From a virus: 21,060 nucleotides of DNA. Numbering within the stretch: position 1 is the first letter of the stretch; the number at the start of each line of letters is the position of its first letter. Under the pieces are notes generated by a model. It had not been told where the DNA came from and ran no database searches. It saw only the letters and a program-made list of their open reading frames with translations. This document shows, one piece after another, positions 1,652 to 9,169 of this stretch. The DNA lies in the IMG/VR virus record IMGVR_UViG_3300042549_004129, positions 1-21,060 of that record; one strand, given 5' to 3'. Made by a program: the position numbers and the translations under genes.

Positions 1652-2355
1652 CATGGGGTTTAGTTGCAGTGGCTGGTGCCACACTCGTCACAGGTTACAT
1701 GGGCGCAGAGGCCGCAGGTGATGCCGCTTCTGCACAGGCCGGATCGGCTGAAGCAGGTATTGCAGAGCAGCGTCGCCAGTTCGACAAAATCCAAGAGTTG
1801 CTCAAGCCTTACGTTGCTGTCGGTGAGCCAGCATTAACTCAGCAGCAGGCGTTTCTTGGTATGCAAGGCCCAGAGGCCGAGCGTGCAGCCATTGATCGAA
1901 TTCGAGGCGGCGAAACATTCCAAGCGCTTGCGCGTCAAGGCGAAGAGGCAATTCTGCAAAGAGCATCGGCCACTGGTGGCCTGCGTGGCGGAAATGTCCA
2001 GGCAGCGCTCGCTCAGTTCCGTCCTCAGCTTTTGTCCGGCCTGATCGAACAGCAATACAGCCGCCTTGGTGGCTTGACCTCACTTGGCCAGCAATCTGCT
2101 GCCGGTGTTGGTACTGCTGGCCAGGCTATGGGCACAAACATCGCAAACCTGCTTGGACAACAAGGCGCTGCGCAAGCTGCTGGCGCTCTTGGCCAGGCTC
2201 AGGCTTATGGCGGAACGATCTCAGGTCTGGCAAACATTGGGGGCCAGTACTTTGGACGACAAGCCTTGCAAAATCAAAACATAGCATCCCAGTTTGGCAC
2301 GACACCAGGTTCGCAGCAAACCTCGATGCTACAAGCACAACAGGCAGGGTTCTGA
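1648..2355 (+). CDS. DNA-ejection / internal virion protein (P22 gp7-type)
   Basis: The 235-residue product begins with a hydrophobic Gly/Ala segment (about residues 3-25, VAVAGATLVTGYMGAEAAG). A coiled-coil-like stretch follows (EQRRQFDKIQELLKPYV), then the conserved core RGGETFQALARQGEEAILQR and ATGGLRGGNVQAALAQF. The tail is Gln/Gly/Ala-rich and low in complexity. This architecture is typical of the small ejected 'DNA transfer' proteins of short-tailed phages, which help carry DNA across the cell envelope. It is the first of three consecutive ejection-type genes of increasing size, the usual order in P22-like genomes. The ATG overlaps the cupin stop (ATGA), implying translational coupling. 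Confidence 0.75.
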   Translation: MTWGLVAVAGATLVTGYMGAEAAGDAASAQAGSAEAGIAEQRRQFDKIQELLKPYVAVGEPALTQQQAFLGMQGPEAERAAIDRIRGGETFQALARQGEEAILQRASATGGLRGGNVQAALAQFRPQLLSGLIEQQYSRLGGLTSLGQQSAAGVGTAGQAMGTNIANLLGQQGAAQAAGALGQAQAYGGTISGLANIGGQYFGRQALQNQNIASQFGTTPGSQQTSMLQAQQAGF

Positions 2356-2356
2356 C

Positions 2357-3766
2357 ATGGCCACACTTCCAGATTATTCGATTAACGTTGCGCAGCCGTT
2401 TGTTGAGGCCTTGCGAGGCTATCAGCTCGGCATGAGCACAGAGGCTTTGAAGCAGGAACAAATTGCAAAGCAGCAGGCCGCGCAGCAGACTATGCAGCGC
2501 CAGGAAATGCTGAACCAGGGCTACAAGTCCCTGATCAACAATCCAAACCCGACTGCTCGTGATTTCACCAATCTGGCCATGCTGCTTCCTGAAAAAGAAG
2601 CCGCAAGCATCCGCGCAAACTGGGACACGCTAAACAAAGACCAGCAAGACTCTGAGCTGCGCTTTGGTGCTCAAGTTGTTTCGGCCTTCAATTCAGGTGC
2701 ACCTCAAATAGGCATCGACCTGTTAAATCAACGGGCAGAAGCTGAGCGCAATGCAGGACGTCCTGACAAGGCAAAAACATTTGAGACCTATGCAAAACTG
2801 GCGGAGATCAATCCAAAGTTTTCAGAGGTCAACATGGGAACAATGCTCGGTGCTATTCCTGGCGGCGACAAAGTTTTAGAAGCATCAATCAAGGCTCGAA
2901 AGGCCCCGGCAGAAATTCGCACAGGCGTTGCAGGCGCAACAAAAGAAGAGCTCATCACTGCCAACACCCCGACCCGCTTGGCTTTGGAAAACACCAACAC
3001 CGCTGCACAAATCAAAAACATCGACAGCCAGATCGCAGACCGTTCTGGCCGCTTGGCGCTTGACCGCGACAAGTTGCAGACCGATGTGGAGTTGAAGCTG
3101 TTTGAACTTGGCCAAGCTGGCACAAAGCTCACACCAGACGCAAACAAGATCGTGAACGACGCGACCATTGCTGCCGTTGGTGCAGAGCAATCCGCAGGCC
3201 GCATGCTTGACCTGGCTGGCCGCATTGAATCCGCACAGGGCGGCAAAGGCTTGGGCACCAAGGCCACAGAGTGGTTCGCAGGCGCTACTGGCCGACAGGA
3301 CGAGTGGACGCAGATGCGCCAGGAATACACCCGGCTGCGCAACACCCAGGCGATCAAGTCCCTGCCACCTGGCCCTGCGACCGACAAAGACATTCAGATG
3401 GCCCTTAAGGGTTTTCCCGAAGAAACTGCCAACGCGCAGACCATCGGCTCGTTCTTGCGTGGCATGGCCAAGCTGCAGCAGTATGAAGGCGCGGCAAAAG
3501 CTGCCGAGGCTGAGTGGGTCAACTCGACCGGCTCCCTTGGCCGTGCCAAGACCGACATCAACATCGGCGGCATCCAGATTCCTGCTGGCACGACCTTCGT
3601 GGACTTTATGCGCCAGTACGGCGAGCAACGCGCACAAGGCCTGGCAGCACAGCAAGCCAACGTGGCCACACAGCAGCGCAGCTACATGCGCTGGATGAAC
3701 CCACAAACCGGCCAAGTGCCCACCCCTGGCACGCTTGGCAGCGGTACTTTCCAGCCTGGCCGCTAA
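2357..3766 (+). CDS. Internal virion / DNA-ejection protein
   Basis: The product is 469 residues. I chose the ATG at 2357, one base after the previous stop (TGACATGG), because the earlier in-frame ATG lies well inside the upstream gene. The N-terminus reads MATLPDYSINVAQPFVEALRGYQLG, then a long Gln/Lys/Glu/Ala-rich helical region (about 30-230) likely to form coiled coil. The C-terminal part is helical and ends in a Gly/Pro/Thr-rich tail. There are no Cys residues, catalytic motifs or signal peptide. The composition, length and place between the small ejection protein and the transglycosylase fit the middle ejection protein of a P22-like set, proteins held inside the capsid and released into the host envelope. 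The family assignment rests on context and style, not on a diagnostic motif. Confidence 0.72.
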   Translation: MATLPDYSINVAQPFVEALRGYQLGMSTEALKQEQIAKQQAAQQTMQRQEMLNQGYKSLINNPNPTARDFTNLAMLLPEKEAASIRANWDTLNKDQQDSELRFGAQVVSAFNSGAPQIGIDLLNQRAEAERNAGRPDKAKTFETYAKLAEINPKFSEVNMGTMLGAIPGGDKVLEASIKARKAPAEIRTGVAGATKEELITANTPTRLALENTNTAAQIKNIDSQIADRSGRLALDRDKLQTDVELKLFELGQAGTKLTPDANKIVNDATIAAVGAEQSAGRMLDLAGRIESAQGGKGLGTKATEWFAGATGRQDEWTQMRQEYTRLRNTQAIKSLPPGPATDKDIQMALKGFPEETANAQTIGSFLRGMAKLQQYEGAAKAAEAEWVNSTGSLGRAKTDINIGGIQIPAGTTFVDFMRQYGEQRAQGLAAQQANVATQQRSYMRWMNPQTGQVPTPGTLGSGTFQPGR

Positions 3767-3775
3767 GGACAAACG

Positions 3776-6700
3776 ATGGCGACACAAGCCCCAAACAGCT
3801 ACAAAGACCCGTTCTGGTCTGACCTGGCCGCTGGCACTGAGCAAAAGCTCGGCCTGCCTTCTGGCCTGCTGAAGTCTGTCTTGCTTTACGGCGAGCGCAG
3901 CAATGCTGACCAGGTGTCCGAGGCCAACGCCAAGACCCCGTTCCAGATCATCCCTGCCACGCGCAAGGCTGTGCTGGACAAGTACGGCGTCGATGCTTAC
4001 CTCAGCCCACAGAACGCAGCCGAGGCTGCTGGCCTGCTGCTCAAGGAATCGCTGCAGCGCAACAAGGGCGACATCAAGCTGGCCGCTGCCGAATATCACG
4101 GCGGCACCAACCCCAAAAACTGGGGGCCTCGCACGAAGTCTTACATCGAGCGCGTGAGTTCCGGTGTTGGCCAAGAGCAAGCCGCCACGCCTGCCACGCT
4201 CCCAGGAGGTGGCGACAGTACCTTTCAGCGCGTTATGGCAGCCCGAGGTGGTGCTGGCGCTGTTGCTGGTGGTTCTGCTATGGCCCCTGGCTCGATTCAA
4301 AACATCTTCAATGCCTACAGCTCCGGCCAGATGACGCCTGAAGAGGCGGCAGACTTTGAGGCCGACGTCAAGTCTGGCGTGCTCATGCTGCCCCGCGGCG
4401 CTGCTTTGCGTGGCCAACAGCCTGCGCCAGCTCAAGGCACGGCTGCCAGCACGCAGGTTGCCGAGCTGCCACCGACTGTGGTGGAGGCATACAACACAGG
4501 CCGCATGACCCGTCAGGAAATGATGGACTTGGAGGCCGACGTCAAGAATGGCATGGTGCGTGCACCTGCTGGCATGCAGATCAAGGGCACCGAGTCCTTG
4601 GGCGTTTTGGGTGGCATCCGTGAGGCCTTCACTGGTGCTGAGCGCCAAACGCCCACCACCCAAGCGCTGCCGGACTATGCAGGCATGCCGGAGCTCAACA
4701 CCTTCAGCATGTCCAGCTTCAAGTCGGCCCTGGGCACCATGATGACCAACCCACAGGAAACTGTGCAGGTCATCCAGTCCAACTTTCCCGGCGTGCAAGT
4801 CAGCCAGGACGAGAAGGGCAACTTCGTGCTGCAGTCGTCGATCGACGGCCAGATGTACGCCATCAAGCCCGGCTTCCAGGTGAGCGACATTCCCCGTGCT
4901 GCTGGCGCTTTGGCTGCCTTCACACCTGCTGGCCGCGCAGCAACGCTGCCAGGCATGGCTTTGGCTGCTGGTGGCACCCAGGCTGCCATCGAGGCCACAC
5001 AAGCTGCAACTGGCGGTAGGTTTGACACTGGCGAGGTGGCCACGACTGCCGTGCTTGCTCCCGTCCTGCCTGCCGCTGTTCGCGGCGTTCAGGCCGTCCG
5101 TGCTGCCCGTGCGCCCGTTACCCCTGCCGCTGGCCCTACGGCCCCGGCTGGCGCTCCTATGGGCACGGCAATGGCACCGTCTGCGCCTGCTGCGCCTGTC
5201 CGTGCTGCAGCACCAGAAGTTCCGCCAGTCCCACAAAGCAAGACAGGTACTCTGTTGGATGACTGGATTCAGAAAAGCCGTGTGCAAGCGCCCGAGACAA
5301 AGGACGTTTTCACAGCAATCAGCCGACGCGCCCAAGCAGCACCGGATGTTGATTTTGAGCTGCGTATGGTCAAAACCTCTGACGTCATTCCGACGCAGGT
5401 TGGCGACGACTACCTGAATGCTTCTTCCACATTCACAGCCGAGCAGATCGCAAAATCCCAATCGATTCAAGACATCCGTCGAGTCGAGGATGTTTTGCCG
5501 ATTCGTCTGGATGATGGCATGCGAGTGATCGATGGCAACCACCGCCATGCAGCCGCTGTCCTCAATAAAGACGAGTTCATTCCTGCCTTGGTTCCTGTTG
5601 GAAAAGGCACTGGCAAGGTTGTGAACCTGGAGTCCATCAAGCAAGGCGCACCAATCAGCTCAGCCATGCCTGCGCGTTCCGCTCAGGCTGCGCCTACAGC
5701 GCAGCCACAAGTTGCTGCCGTTCCGCCAACTGCTGCCATGACACCGCAAGAGCTGGCCACGACCGCACGCACCGCAGCCGAGGGTGGCATGGGCGCAACC
5801 CGAGCCACTTCTGTGCTGGCTGGCCAAGCCGCACCCGATCCAAAGGTGCTGGAGGCTGCCCGACGCCTTGGCATCGACGAATATTTACAGCCCGATCACC
5901 TGACCTCAAACCAGGCTTACCGTGAGCTGGCCCAAGCCGTGAAGTCCATCCCCGGCAGCCAGGCTCGCGCATCCGAGATCAAGGGCCTGGAGCAAGTTGG
6001 CCAGCGTGCCGACAACCTGATCACCGAGATCGGTGGCACCACAGACCTGAGCAGGCTCAACCAGTCCGTGCGCACGCAGCTCGACCAGACGGTGACCAAC
6101 CTGTCCAACCAAGCCGACGATGCCTACAAGGCACTGCGCACGCAGATTCCATCTCAGACTCGTGGCCAGGCTGACAACGTGCTGAACTTTGTGCAAAAGC
6201 GTGCCGACGATCTGGATGGCCCAGAAAACCTGTCCGCGCTCGAAAAAATGGTGCGCAGCAAGCTCACGCCCAAGCCCATCAAAGACGATGCAGGCAACGT
6301 CATCGGCACCCGTGCCCCGACTTATGCCCTGATCGACGACGTTCGGCGCGACGTTGGTGCTGCTGCACGCCAGGCTGGCCCATTTGCTGATGCTGACACC
6401 GGCCTTGCAAAGCAGCTTTATCGCCTGATCGACGATGACCAGTTTGCGCTGGCGCAGACCGCTGGCCAAGGCGAGAGCTATCGACTGGCCAAGAGCCTGG
6501 TGCAGATGCGCAAAGGCTTTGAAGATGACATGACTTCCTTATTTGGCCGACAGCTCGATCAGAGCCTTGTCAGCAAGCTGGAATCGGCCACCATGTCCTT
6601 ATCAAAAGGCGACGCCGACAAGCTGGCCAAGATTCTGACCGCCATCCCCAAGGACATGCGCCAGGCAGTCACAGCCTCGTCGCTGAACACCGCATTCGGC

Positions 6701-7183
6701 AAAGCCACCCAAAATGGCACGCTGAACTTCAACACCTATGCCAAGTGGTACGAGGGCCTGCTGGCCAACAAGCAGGCTTATGCTGCGCTGATGGCCAACC
6801 TGCCACAGCCTGCACGCAAGCAGCTGTCCGACCTGTACCGTGTGTCCAGCAACGTGAGCAAGGCCACCCGCGAGCGCATTACCACTGGACGCATTCAAGC
6901 CGTCCAGCAGGAGCTGCAGGGCGCTGACAACATGCTGTCGAACATCTACGGCCTGGCCAAGCGTGCAGCCGTCGGTGTGCCAATTGAGGCAGCCACAAGC
7001 CTTGTCGGCCTGCCTGGTGCTGGTATTGCGTCCGGTTTGACCGCTGCATTGACCAAGGGCAAGACAAACGCCCTCAAGGCTGCCGACGATCTGATCGCCT
7101 CGCCTGAGTTCCAGCGCCTGGCTGTTGAGGCCGTTTCCACCAACAGCAACCCATCAAGGGCTACCGTAAAAGTTTGCCGATGA
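3776..7183 (+). CDS. Large ejection protein: lytic transglycosylase + 40-residue repeats + ParB-like box (3' end frameshifted)
   Basis: The product is 1135 residues as read. Residues ~27-115 form an SLT-type lytic transglycosylase domain: LLKSVLLYGE places the catalytic Glu at E40, followed by TPFQIIPATRKAV and AAAEYHGG. It would open peptidoglycan during DNA entry. Residues ~176-215 and ~235-275 are two copies of a repeat (AYSSGQMTPEEAADFEADVK and AYNTGRMTRQEMMDLEADVK). An Ala/Pro linker follows. Residues ~525-605 resemble a ParB/sulfiredoxin-like fold, with the box VIDGNHRHAAAVL at D586-H591. The remainder is long, helical and Ala/Gln-rich, with a hydrophobic segment at ~1063-1090 (IEAATSLVGLPGAGIASGL). 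The reading frame stops early; removing one A from AAAA at 7168-7171 continues it to TAA 7272-7274, overlapping the tailspike ATG. Confidence 0.85.
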   Translation: MATQAPNSYKDPFWSDLAAGTEQKLGLPSGLLKSVLLYGERSNADQVSEANAKTPFQIIPATRKAVLDKYGVDAYLSPQNAAEAAGLLLKESLQRNKGDIKLAAAEYHGGTNPKNWGPRTKSYIERVSSGVGQEQAATPATLPGGGDSTFQRVMAARGGAGAVAGGSAMAPGSIQNIFNAYSSGQMTPEEAADFEADVKSGVLMLPRGAALRGQQPAPAQGTAASTQVAELPPTVVEAYNTGRMTRQEMMDLEADVKNGMVRAPAGMQIKGTESLGVLGGIREAFTGAERQTPTTQALPDYAGMPELNTFSMSSFKSALGTMMTNPQETVQVIQSNFPGVQVSQDEKGNFVLQSSIDGQMYAIKPGFQVSDIPRAAGALAAFTPAGRAATLPGMALAAGGTQAAIEATQAATGGRFDTGEVATTAVLAPVLPAAVRGVQAVRAARAPVTPAAGPTAPAGAPMGTAMAPSAPAAPVRAAAPEVPPVPQSKTGTLLDDWIQKSRVQAPETKDVFTAISRRAQAAPDVDFELRMVKTSDVIPTQVGDDYLNASSTFTAEQIAKSQSIQDIRRVEDVLPIRLDDGMRVIDGNHRHAAAVLNKDEFIPALVPVGKGTGKVVNLESIKQGAPISSAMPARSAQAAPTAQPQVAAVPPTAAMTPQELATTARTAAEGGMGATRATSVLAGQAAPDPKVLEAARRLGIDEYLQPDHLTSNQAYRELAQAVKSIPGSQARASEIKGLEQVGQRADNLITEIGGTTDLSRLNQSVRTQLDQTVTNLSNQADDAYKALRTQIPSQTRGQADNVLNFVQKRADDLDGPENLSALEKMVRSKLTPKPIKDDAGNVIGTRAPTYALIDDVRRDVGAAARQAGPFADADTGLAKQLYRLIDDDQFALAQTAGQGESYRLAKSLVQMRKGFEDDMTSLFGRQLDQSLVSKLESATMSLSKGDADKLAKILTAIPKDMRQAVTASSLNTAFGKATQNGTLNFNTYAKWYEGLLANKQAYAALMANLPQPARKQLSDLYRVSSNVSKATRERITTGRIQAVQQELQGADNMLSNIYGLAKRAAVGVPIEAATSLVGLPGAGIASGLTAALTKGKTNALKAADDLIASPEFQRLAVEAVSTNSNPSRATVKVCR

Positions 7184-7274
7184 GGTGAAACTCCCACGTG
7201 AAATGAGTGCGCGTGAGAAATTCATTGTTCAATCGCTGCAGGCCCAGGAGCAATTTGAACAGGAGAACCAGTAA
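7166..7274 (+). other. Out-of-frame 3' extension of the large ejection gene
   Basis: Past the AAAA run at 7168-7171 the frame offset by one base stays open, reading KFADEVKLPREMSAREKF then a Gln/Glu-rich tail ending ENQ and TAA. The TAA (7272-7274) shares its last A with the tailspike ATG, the tight junction seen elsewhere in this genome. The Lys/Glu/Gln-rich helix-like composition also fits the ejection protein better than the 11-residue tail in the annotated frame (SNPSRATVKVCR). This indicates a one-base insertion, which could be a sequencing or assembly error at the homopolymer, a natural mutation, or a +1 recoding site (AAA followed by GTT, stop five codons on). Confidence 0.7.
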
Positions 7275-9169
7275 TGTCCGCACTCTCGATCCAACCCACC
7301 TATCCGATCTTTACGGACATCGATGGCCAGCCTCTTGAGGCAGGTTATGTCTGGATTGGTCAGGCAAATCTTGACCCACAGGTCAACCCGATCAATGTGT
7401 ATTGGGACGATGCGCTGACCATCCTTGCGCCTCAACCCATCCGCACACTTGGCGGCTATCCATCACGCAATGGCACGCCTGCTCGTTTGTACGTCAATAG
7501 CGACTACAGCATCCGAGTAATGAACAGGAACGGCAGTACAGTCTACAGCGCACCATCTGCGACAGAGCGATACAGCGATGTTGTTTTAAGCAGCGTTGAT
7601 TCTTCAGATGTCACATTTTTACAAGCAGGCTCCGGAGCAATTCCGCGATCTGTCCAGTCACGCCTGCGTGACACCGTGAGCGTTTTTGATTTCATGACGG
7701 CAGCAGAAATTGCAGATGTCAAATCAGGAACGCCAGTCATTGATGTGCAGCCAAAGATTCAAGCCGCCTTGACTCAAGGCAAATTCGTGTTTCTTCCCCA
7801 AGGAACTTACCTGATCAACACCCCCATTGATCTTGCATCGTTTCCGCAGGCAGGCTTGATTGGCGAATCTTTCATGCTCACCAGCATCAAGGCTGGTGCA
7901 TCAATGACGTCTGTCATTGATCTTTACGACACAATCGACATTTATGCTGGCATTGCCGAGTACAAGATTCACGACATTAAGTTGGATGGCAATTCCCTGG
8001 CAACCTATGGAATGCACATTCGATATCGCCATCAGATTGATGCGCGAGGCATTTACGTCCAAGGATGCGATACTGCTTTCTGGATGGCAGACAGTTGGAT
8101 GTGCAACTTCTGGGATTGCTACAGCCACTTCAACGTGAATGGCGGCTTCCATCTTGAGGGCGCAAACCACAGCAGCACGTACAACGAGTGCCATGTTACT
8201 GGCGCAAACACAGGCCCAGCCATTTATGTTGGCGGCACAAACCGCATCGACGGCAACAGCGACATTACGTTCAATAGCTTGTTGATTGATGCTTGTGATT
8301 TCACACAGATCGTTGTTGAAATGGGCGTCAACACCAACGTGGTCACATTCAACAGCGGCTACATGGGCGAGTACGCTGCAAACAGCCTTGGCACTTCTGC
8401 ATTCGTGAAAGTTATTTCAGGAAAAGCTGTGTTCAATGGGTGTGAAATTTTTTGCCAAGACACATCAGTGCCACCAGAAACTGGTGGCGGCATGGCGCTG
8501 TTTTGGCGTGCCAATGGCGAGGCGATTTTTCAGAATTGCAGCATCGCTTTGTATTCGTATGAGTACCTGTATCACCCAAGTTCAAACAATGTTGGTGCGC
8601 TGACCATTCAAGATTCCACAGTCATCAATGGAGCCTCATACGGCACAGAATTAATCTCTGGCCTGTACAACTTGTTTCCAGTCAAAGACTACGCTTACAA
8701 AATCACTCCAGATCATTTTGGACGTGATATGGCGTATAACACTTTCACACCTTCTGGTTCATTTGCCAGAACATTTCCAGACACTGAAGCGCAAAAAGTT
8801 GAAGCGTTGACAACTGGAGGTTTTGCAAGTTTGTCAATGGTTCCAAACACCATTCCAAACAATACCAATTTTTATTTGGTGTTTCTTGAGTACAGCAGCA
8901 ACATGAACACCACGTTGCAATTTAGTGATGCAGCATTAGGGGCGGCTATATGGACAGCGGTTTCTATTGTGCCAACTACAATTAATACAAGATCAACATT
9001 TGTGGGGCTATTAGTAAGCCCTGGCACATTTTCTAATACCCCGCCAATAGTGGAATTGTTTAAGCAAGCGGGTACGGCGTGGTCTGCTGGGGACTACATC
9101 CATGTTTGGAAGTTTTCGATTCTTCCAATCAATGAGATCAATTACTCAACATTGAATTTTGAATTTTAA
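7274..9169 (+). CDS. Tailspike: P22-like head-binding N-terminus with right-handed beta-helix
   Basis: The 631-residue product starts after AGGAG, 9 bases upstream. Residues ~1-110 match the head-binding domain of P22-type tailspikes: an N-terminal PTYPIFTDIDGQPLEAGYVW followed by IGQANLDPQVNPINVYWD, with further match to ~residue 105. Residues ~125-190 hold the neck that precedes pectate-lyase-like beta-helices (SRLRDTVSVFDFMTA, then KFVFLPQGTYLINTPI). Residues ~190-480 show repeated Asn/Gly/Cys-rich rungs typical of a parallel beta-helix trimer that binds or cleaves surface polysaccharide. Residues ~480-631 form a separate C-terminal domain. The N-terminus should anchor to the tail and the helix decide host specificity. 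Active-site acids cannot be assigned by eye. The last third is visibly AT-richer, with codons such as TTA, CTA and AGA that are rare upstream. Confidence 0.88.
   Translation: MSALSIQPTYPIFTDIDGQPLEAGYVWIGQANLDPQVNPINVYWDDALTILAPQPIRTLGGYPSRNGTPARLYVNSDYSIRVMNRNGSTVYSAPSATERYSDVVLSSVDSSDVTFLQAGSGAIPRSVQSRLRDTVSVFDFMTAAEIADVKSGTPVIDVQPKIQAALTQGKFVFLPQGTYLINTPIDLASFPQAGLIGESFMLTSIKAGASMTSVIDLYDTIDIYAGIAEYKIHDIKLDGNSLATYGMHIRYRHQIDARGIYVQGCDTAFWMADSWMCNFWDCYSHFNVNGGFHLEGANHSSTYNECHVTGANTGPAIYVGGTNRIDGNSDITFNSLLIDACDFTQIVVEMGVNTNVVTFNSGYMGEYAANSLGTSAFVKVISGKAVFNGCEIFCQDTSVPPETGGGMALFWRANGEAIFQNCSIALYSYEYLYHPSSNNVGALTIQDSTVINGASYGTELISGLYNLFPVKDYAYKITPDHFGRDMAYNTFTPSGSFARTFPDTEAQKVEALTTGGFASLSMVPNTIPNNTNFYLVFLEYSSNMNTTLQFSDAALGAAIWTAVSIVPTTINTRSTFVGLLVSPGTFSNTPPIVELFKQAGTAWSAGDYIHVWKFSILPINEINYSTLNFEF

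Follow-up and report, generated by a model that had tools for sequence, protein, structure and literature searches.

An apparent one-base frameshift in a phage ejection-protein gene is a 29-base deletion edged by AAA

Ejection proteins of the T7 gp16 type carry an N-terminal transglycosylase domain followed by a long, mostly helical C-terminal part, and their genes adjoin those of other ejection proteins. T7 gp16 is reported to require its last five residues for infectivity, and T7 relatives are described as having a positively charged tail (review of T7-like ejection proteins, PMC8954989). Among described phages, Pseudomonas phage PfAn1 encodes a putative peptidoglycan transglycosylase (XRX11820.1) with an intact C-terminal tail, whose gene lies directly ahead of a tail gene, terminates with TAG and is separated from that gene by 10 nt. 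Deletions between short direct repeats, which arise by replication slippage or microhomology-mediated joining and remove one repeat copy together with the intervening sequence, are already known, as is prfB-like programmed +1 frameshifting, in which a TGA stands just behind the slip site. Here we analysed a viral DNA stretch of 21,060 nucleotides (IMG/VR record IMGVR_UViG_3300042549_004129, positions 1 to 21,060; hereafter the window), in which the gene of a gp16-like ejection protein is truncated.

The truncated gene for this ejection (internal virion) protein occupies 3776..7183 of the plus strand and comprises 1135 codons. Its product resembles the gp16 type in an N-terminal SLT transglycosylase domain at residues 22-120 (Pfam PF01464, E 5.4e-05; 23.2 bits, above the cut-off of 21.3), in a C-terminal part that is long and mostly helical, and in a match to the internal virion protein family PHROG 342 (1.6e-16), which covers residues 16-198 only. 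The C-terminal part of the window protein appears to differ from gp16, as it matches PHROG 6704 instead (4.6e-145; annotated as of unknown function), and the end of its family is not basic, in contrast to the charged tail of the T7 relatives. The gene follows two others assigned to PHROG DNA ejection (1648-2355) and to PHROG 917, released upon infection (2294-3766), and precedes a tailspike gene at 7274..9169 on the same strand (Pfam Pect-lyase_RHGA_epim, 6.3e-07; PHROG tail spike, 1.1e-04). This order, ejection proteins and then a tail spike or fibre, is the one expected of gp16-like ejection proteins. XRX11820.1 is 49% identical to the window protein over the C-terminal third, and its gene holds the same place ahead of the tail gene and lacks the deletion described below. 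The C-terminal tail is still recognisable both in this PfAn1 protein and in that of MW202867 (33% identity).

The 3' end of the ejection-protein frame reads GCT ACC GTA AAA GTT TGC CGA TGA (...ATVKVCR*), in which GTT TGC CGA (V C R, 7172..7180) leads to a TGA at 7181..7183 that is in frame in none of the intact relatives. The frame entered at 7170 remains open for 34 codons, encoding KFADEVKLPREMSAREKFIVQSLQAQEQFEQENQ, and closes with a TAA at 7272-7274 that overlaps the tailspike ATG (7274-7276) by one A. A sequence-only reading had noticed that leaving out one A of the run at 7168-7171 opens the frame up to the tailspike start and had held this to be no accident. Both points stand: the 34 codons were confirmed, intact relatives encode the same residues, and the 90-nt gap between the ejection and tailspike genes departs from the tight packing of the rightward cluster, where gaps are otherwise -8 to +10 nt. 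The plus-strand segment 7170..7274 is hence a remnant of the genuine ejection-protein C-terminus, which is uninterrupted in the relatives and here lies out of frame. The accompanying statement that contact of stop and start is the rule in this genome was slightly overstated; about half of the junctions overlap or touch, and the rest have 3-10 nt. Right behind the premature TGA, a GTG at 7185-7187 lies in the ancestral frame, and re-initiation of a short peptide there is possible in principle.

Relatives were collected by scanning IMG/VR with the C-terminal third of the ejection protein, which yielded 39 loci with 73-99% amino-acid identity; a second scan with the C-terminal alignment as the query enlarged the set to about 60 contigs. 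No relative emerged from a search of a collection of bacterial and archaeal genomes. The frame is continuous in 56 of 60 relatives, with its stop at or close to the start of the tail gene; in three more it stays open to the contig end, and the remaining one has a different deletion. As the sequence-only reading had argued, an uninterrupted frame in the relatives points to error or mutation, and this proved the right class; homologues that end at the in-frame TGA, which would have spoken for a natural terminus, were found in no relative. In nucleotide alignments of the closely related loci, the sole feature at the site is a stretch of 29 nt absent from the window at 7168-7171. These relatives carry the 29 additional bases exactly at the A run, in the order GTAAA, GGCCGTCTTGATGTCACAATCTTTCCA and AAAGTTT. 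The site reads CCGTAAAGGCCGTCTTGATGTCACAATCTTTCCAAAAGTTTGCCGATG in the relative L004 and CCGTAAAAGTTTGCCGATG in the window. Distant loci of about 75% nucleotide identity align less tidily here, and their protein still passes through the site in frame.

Scripted removal of the 29 nt from L004 yielded the CCGTAAAAGTTTGCCGA of the window with a 3-nt microhomology. The sequence between the repeats and one AAA copy were lost exactly, leaving the AAAA joint at 7168..7171 (plus strand) and the junction AAAAGTTT; the breakpoint is fixed only to within the AAA repeat. Because the missing stretch has AAA on either side, a single loss of 29 bases between 3-base repeats creates the A4 run and the frameshift together. 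The apparent one-base frameshift is therefore a 29-base deletion, whether it is a loss mutation of the ordinary kind or an error made locally in sequencing or assembly. We put the probability that the ejection-protein gene suffered a single out-of-frame 29-bp deletion, flanked by AAA and close to its 3' end, at about 94%. Between 3776 and 7270, comparison with L004 or L006 revealed no further uncompensated frame-changing indel.

The deletion thus resembles known short direct-repeat deletions in the loss of one AAA copy plus the intervening sequence in a single out-of-frame event. It differs in that the repeat is just 3 nt and no hairpin beyond chance occurs at the site; the folding energy equals that of shuffled sequences (z about 0), on which ground a hairpin-promoted deletion was rejected. 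A microhomology of at least 3 nt is found in only 2.1% of the possible 29-nt deletions of the ejection gene; as evidence for a mechanism, a repeat of 3 nt is weak. We infer that slipped mispairing or microhomology joining at AAA may have removed the 29 bp, presumably not long ago, be it within the phage population or during amplification of the library or assembly. The deletion turns the remainder of the gene into the 90-nt spacer ahead of the tailspike, which should still be startable from its own AGGAG.

The lesion had been described as one surplus A, and here the sequence-only reading was wrong, for the window lacks 29 bases and owes its A4 run to the joining of the two edges. A base-call or assembly error of one base in this run would agree with the frame that opens once an A is omitted, but the alignment requires 29 nt rather than one, and the protein so restored would still lack residues present in all intact relatives, so that such an error is very improbable. 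An in-frame 30-nt deletion combined with a separate extra base was also rejected; a degenerate search for it matched only six unrelated contigs and no relative. The same reading had alternatively proposed +1 recoding, in which a programmed ribosomal shift at AAA GTT, just before CGA TGA, would yield the protein in two forms, one long and one short. The post-shift frame is indeed genuinely coding, and the nearby TGA recalls prfB. A programmed shift, however, requires a conserved site and a homologous product. A break at the window's site occurs in none of the 60 relatives, whose frame is uninterrupted and which neither carry the site nor need the shift; the shifted product is still about 9 conserved residues (AVLMSQSFQ) short of its homologues; and searches of viral contigs with the junction, in exact and degenerate form, found no second contig with it. 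Since the supposed slip site, A4 run and TGA context alike, exists only through the deletion, recoding is rejected and appears hardly tenable. This keeps a phage structural gene from being wrongly credited with programmed recoding, and the case illustrates that an apparent homopolymer slip may be the scar of a larger deletion.

Within the 29-base deletion, the cause may lie in the phage or in its sequencing. The gap stands in either case; what differs is whether the 29 nt were lost from the phage genome or were present there and dropped from the contig by a microhomology jump or a local mis-join at the variable boundary. The lost tail was under constraint, with a pooled pN/pS of 0.07 against 0.12 in the 110 upstream codons (12 relatives). 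The remnant in the window differs from L004 and L005 by three synonymous changes and one non-synonymous change, and the E gained by the latter also occurs in L008 and L009. The remnant therefore remained under coding constraint up to a very recent time, and the deletion is either young or later than the sampling; judged from these substitutions, it appears to be very recent or to come from the sample, library or assembly. The undecayed remnant is what an artefact would leave, as is a deletion unique among about 60 contigs. Several contigs, moreover, stop at the ejection/tailspike boundary, and L027, the other deletion carrier, ends about 150 nt on. Against an artefact, both flanks derive from one lineage, the joint is a clean microhomology, and no other uncompensated frame-breaking indel was found in the coding stretches compared with L045-L048. 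Standard assemblers are not known to join through a 3-base overlap without a spanning read. A chimeric contig is not supported, given that L004 and L005 match the window about equally well to either side of the joint (90-96% identity just left and 96% just right), and the comparison with L045-L048 likewise speaks against a generally error-rich contig. With one contig carrying the deletion, we lean modestly towards a mutation that is real in the phage, and regard loss in the library or assembly as a serious but somewhat less likely origin.

The relative with a different deletion (L027, the same contig as L106) has lost 22 bp from this gene in an independent out-of-frame event on a GGCA repeat (L027:3910-3950), upstream of the site in the window by about 50 nt. 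Taking these bases out of an L018-like parent reproduces the deletion exactly, and the contig stops about 150 nt past it. It is mildly surprising that a gene longer than 3 kb should show two such deletions so close together. They might suggest that deletions recur at the 3' end of the ejection gene and that truncated proteins are tolerated or favoured in some phages, the window (29 bp, AAA) and L027 (22 bp, GGCA) being two independent cases within about 50 bp beside an exchangeable tailspike module. We regard both the recurrence and this account of the pair as improbable. Because breaks at the C-terminus are the most tolerable and L027 ends soon after its deletion, the pair permits no strong conclusion.

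The 29-base deletion replaces 43 conserved C-terminal residues by VCR in the window protein. When the C-terminal 367 residues of the L004 protein were modelled, the structure was of low overall confidence (mean pLDDT 53) and gave no confident fold; residues 301-350 of this fragment alone reach block mean pLDDT values of 69-84, as short helices. The deletion takes away the modelled short helices beyond residue 324 of the fragment. Should the phage itself carry the deletion, the truncated protein, predicted to have lost roughly half of a small C-terminal unit of helices, would probably be impaired; the essential end of T7 gp16 is a parallel here and not a homology. A real deletion would mean either that the genome may be defective or that the protein can do without its conserved last 43 residues. 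In annotation, the window protein should be marked as truncated relative to its about 60 intact homologues. Further upstream in the gene, about 500 nt (window 5182-5730) are missing in most relatives and present in L004. The encoded stretch contains a DGNHRHAAAV motif, which we take to resemble ParB-type nuclease motifs, and has no Pfam, PDB or phage-record match.

On the other side of the gene boundary, similarity to all close relatives falls sharply past about 7500-7590 (window 7520-9169), such that the first 80-100 or so residues of the tailspike are conserved and the remainder is exchanged. Contigs L012, L013, L018 and L027 have their 3' ends close to the end of the ejection gene, at distances from a few nt up to about 150 nt. 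Such contig ends probably result from assembly breaking at the variable tailspike, and assembly is probably fragile there. The boundary itself (QENQ stop, TAATGTCCGC) and the tail gene start are conserved at the DNA level with MW202867 (window 7224-7482; L003:3001-3259), despite an ejection protein there that is just 33% identical. This pattern of conservation suggests that the ejection/tail boundary is possibly a joint for module exchange.
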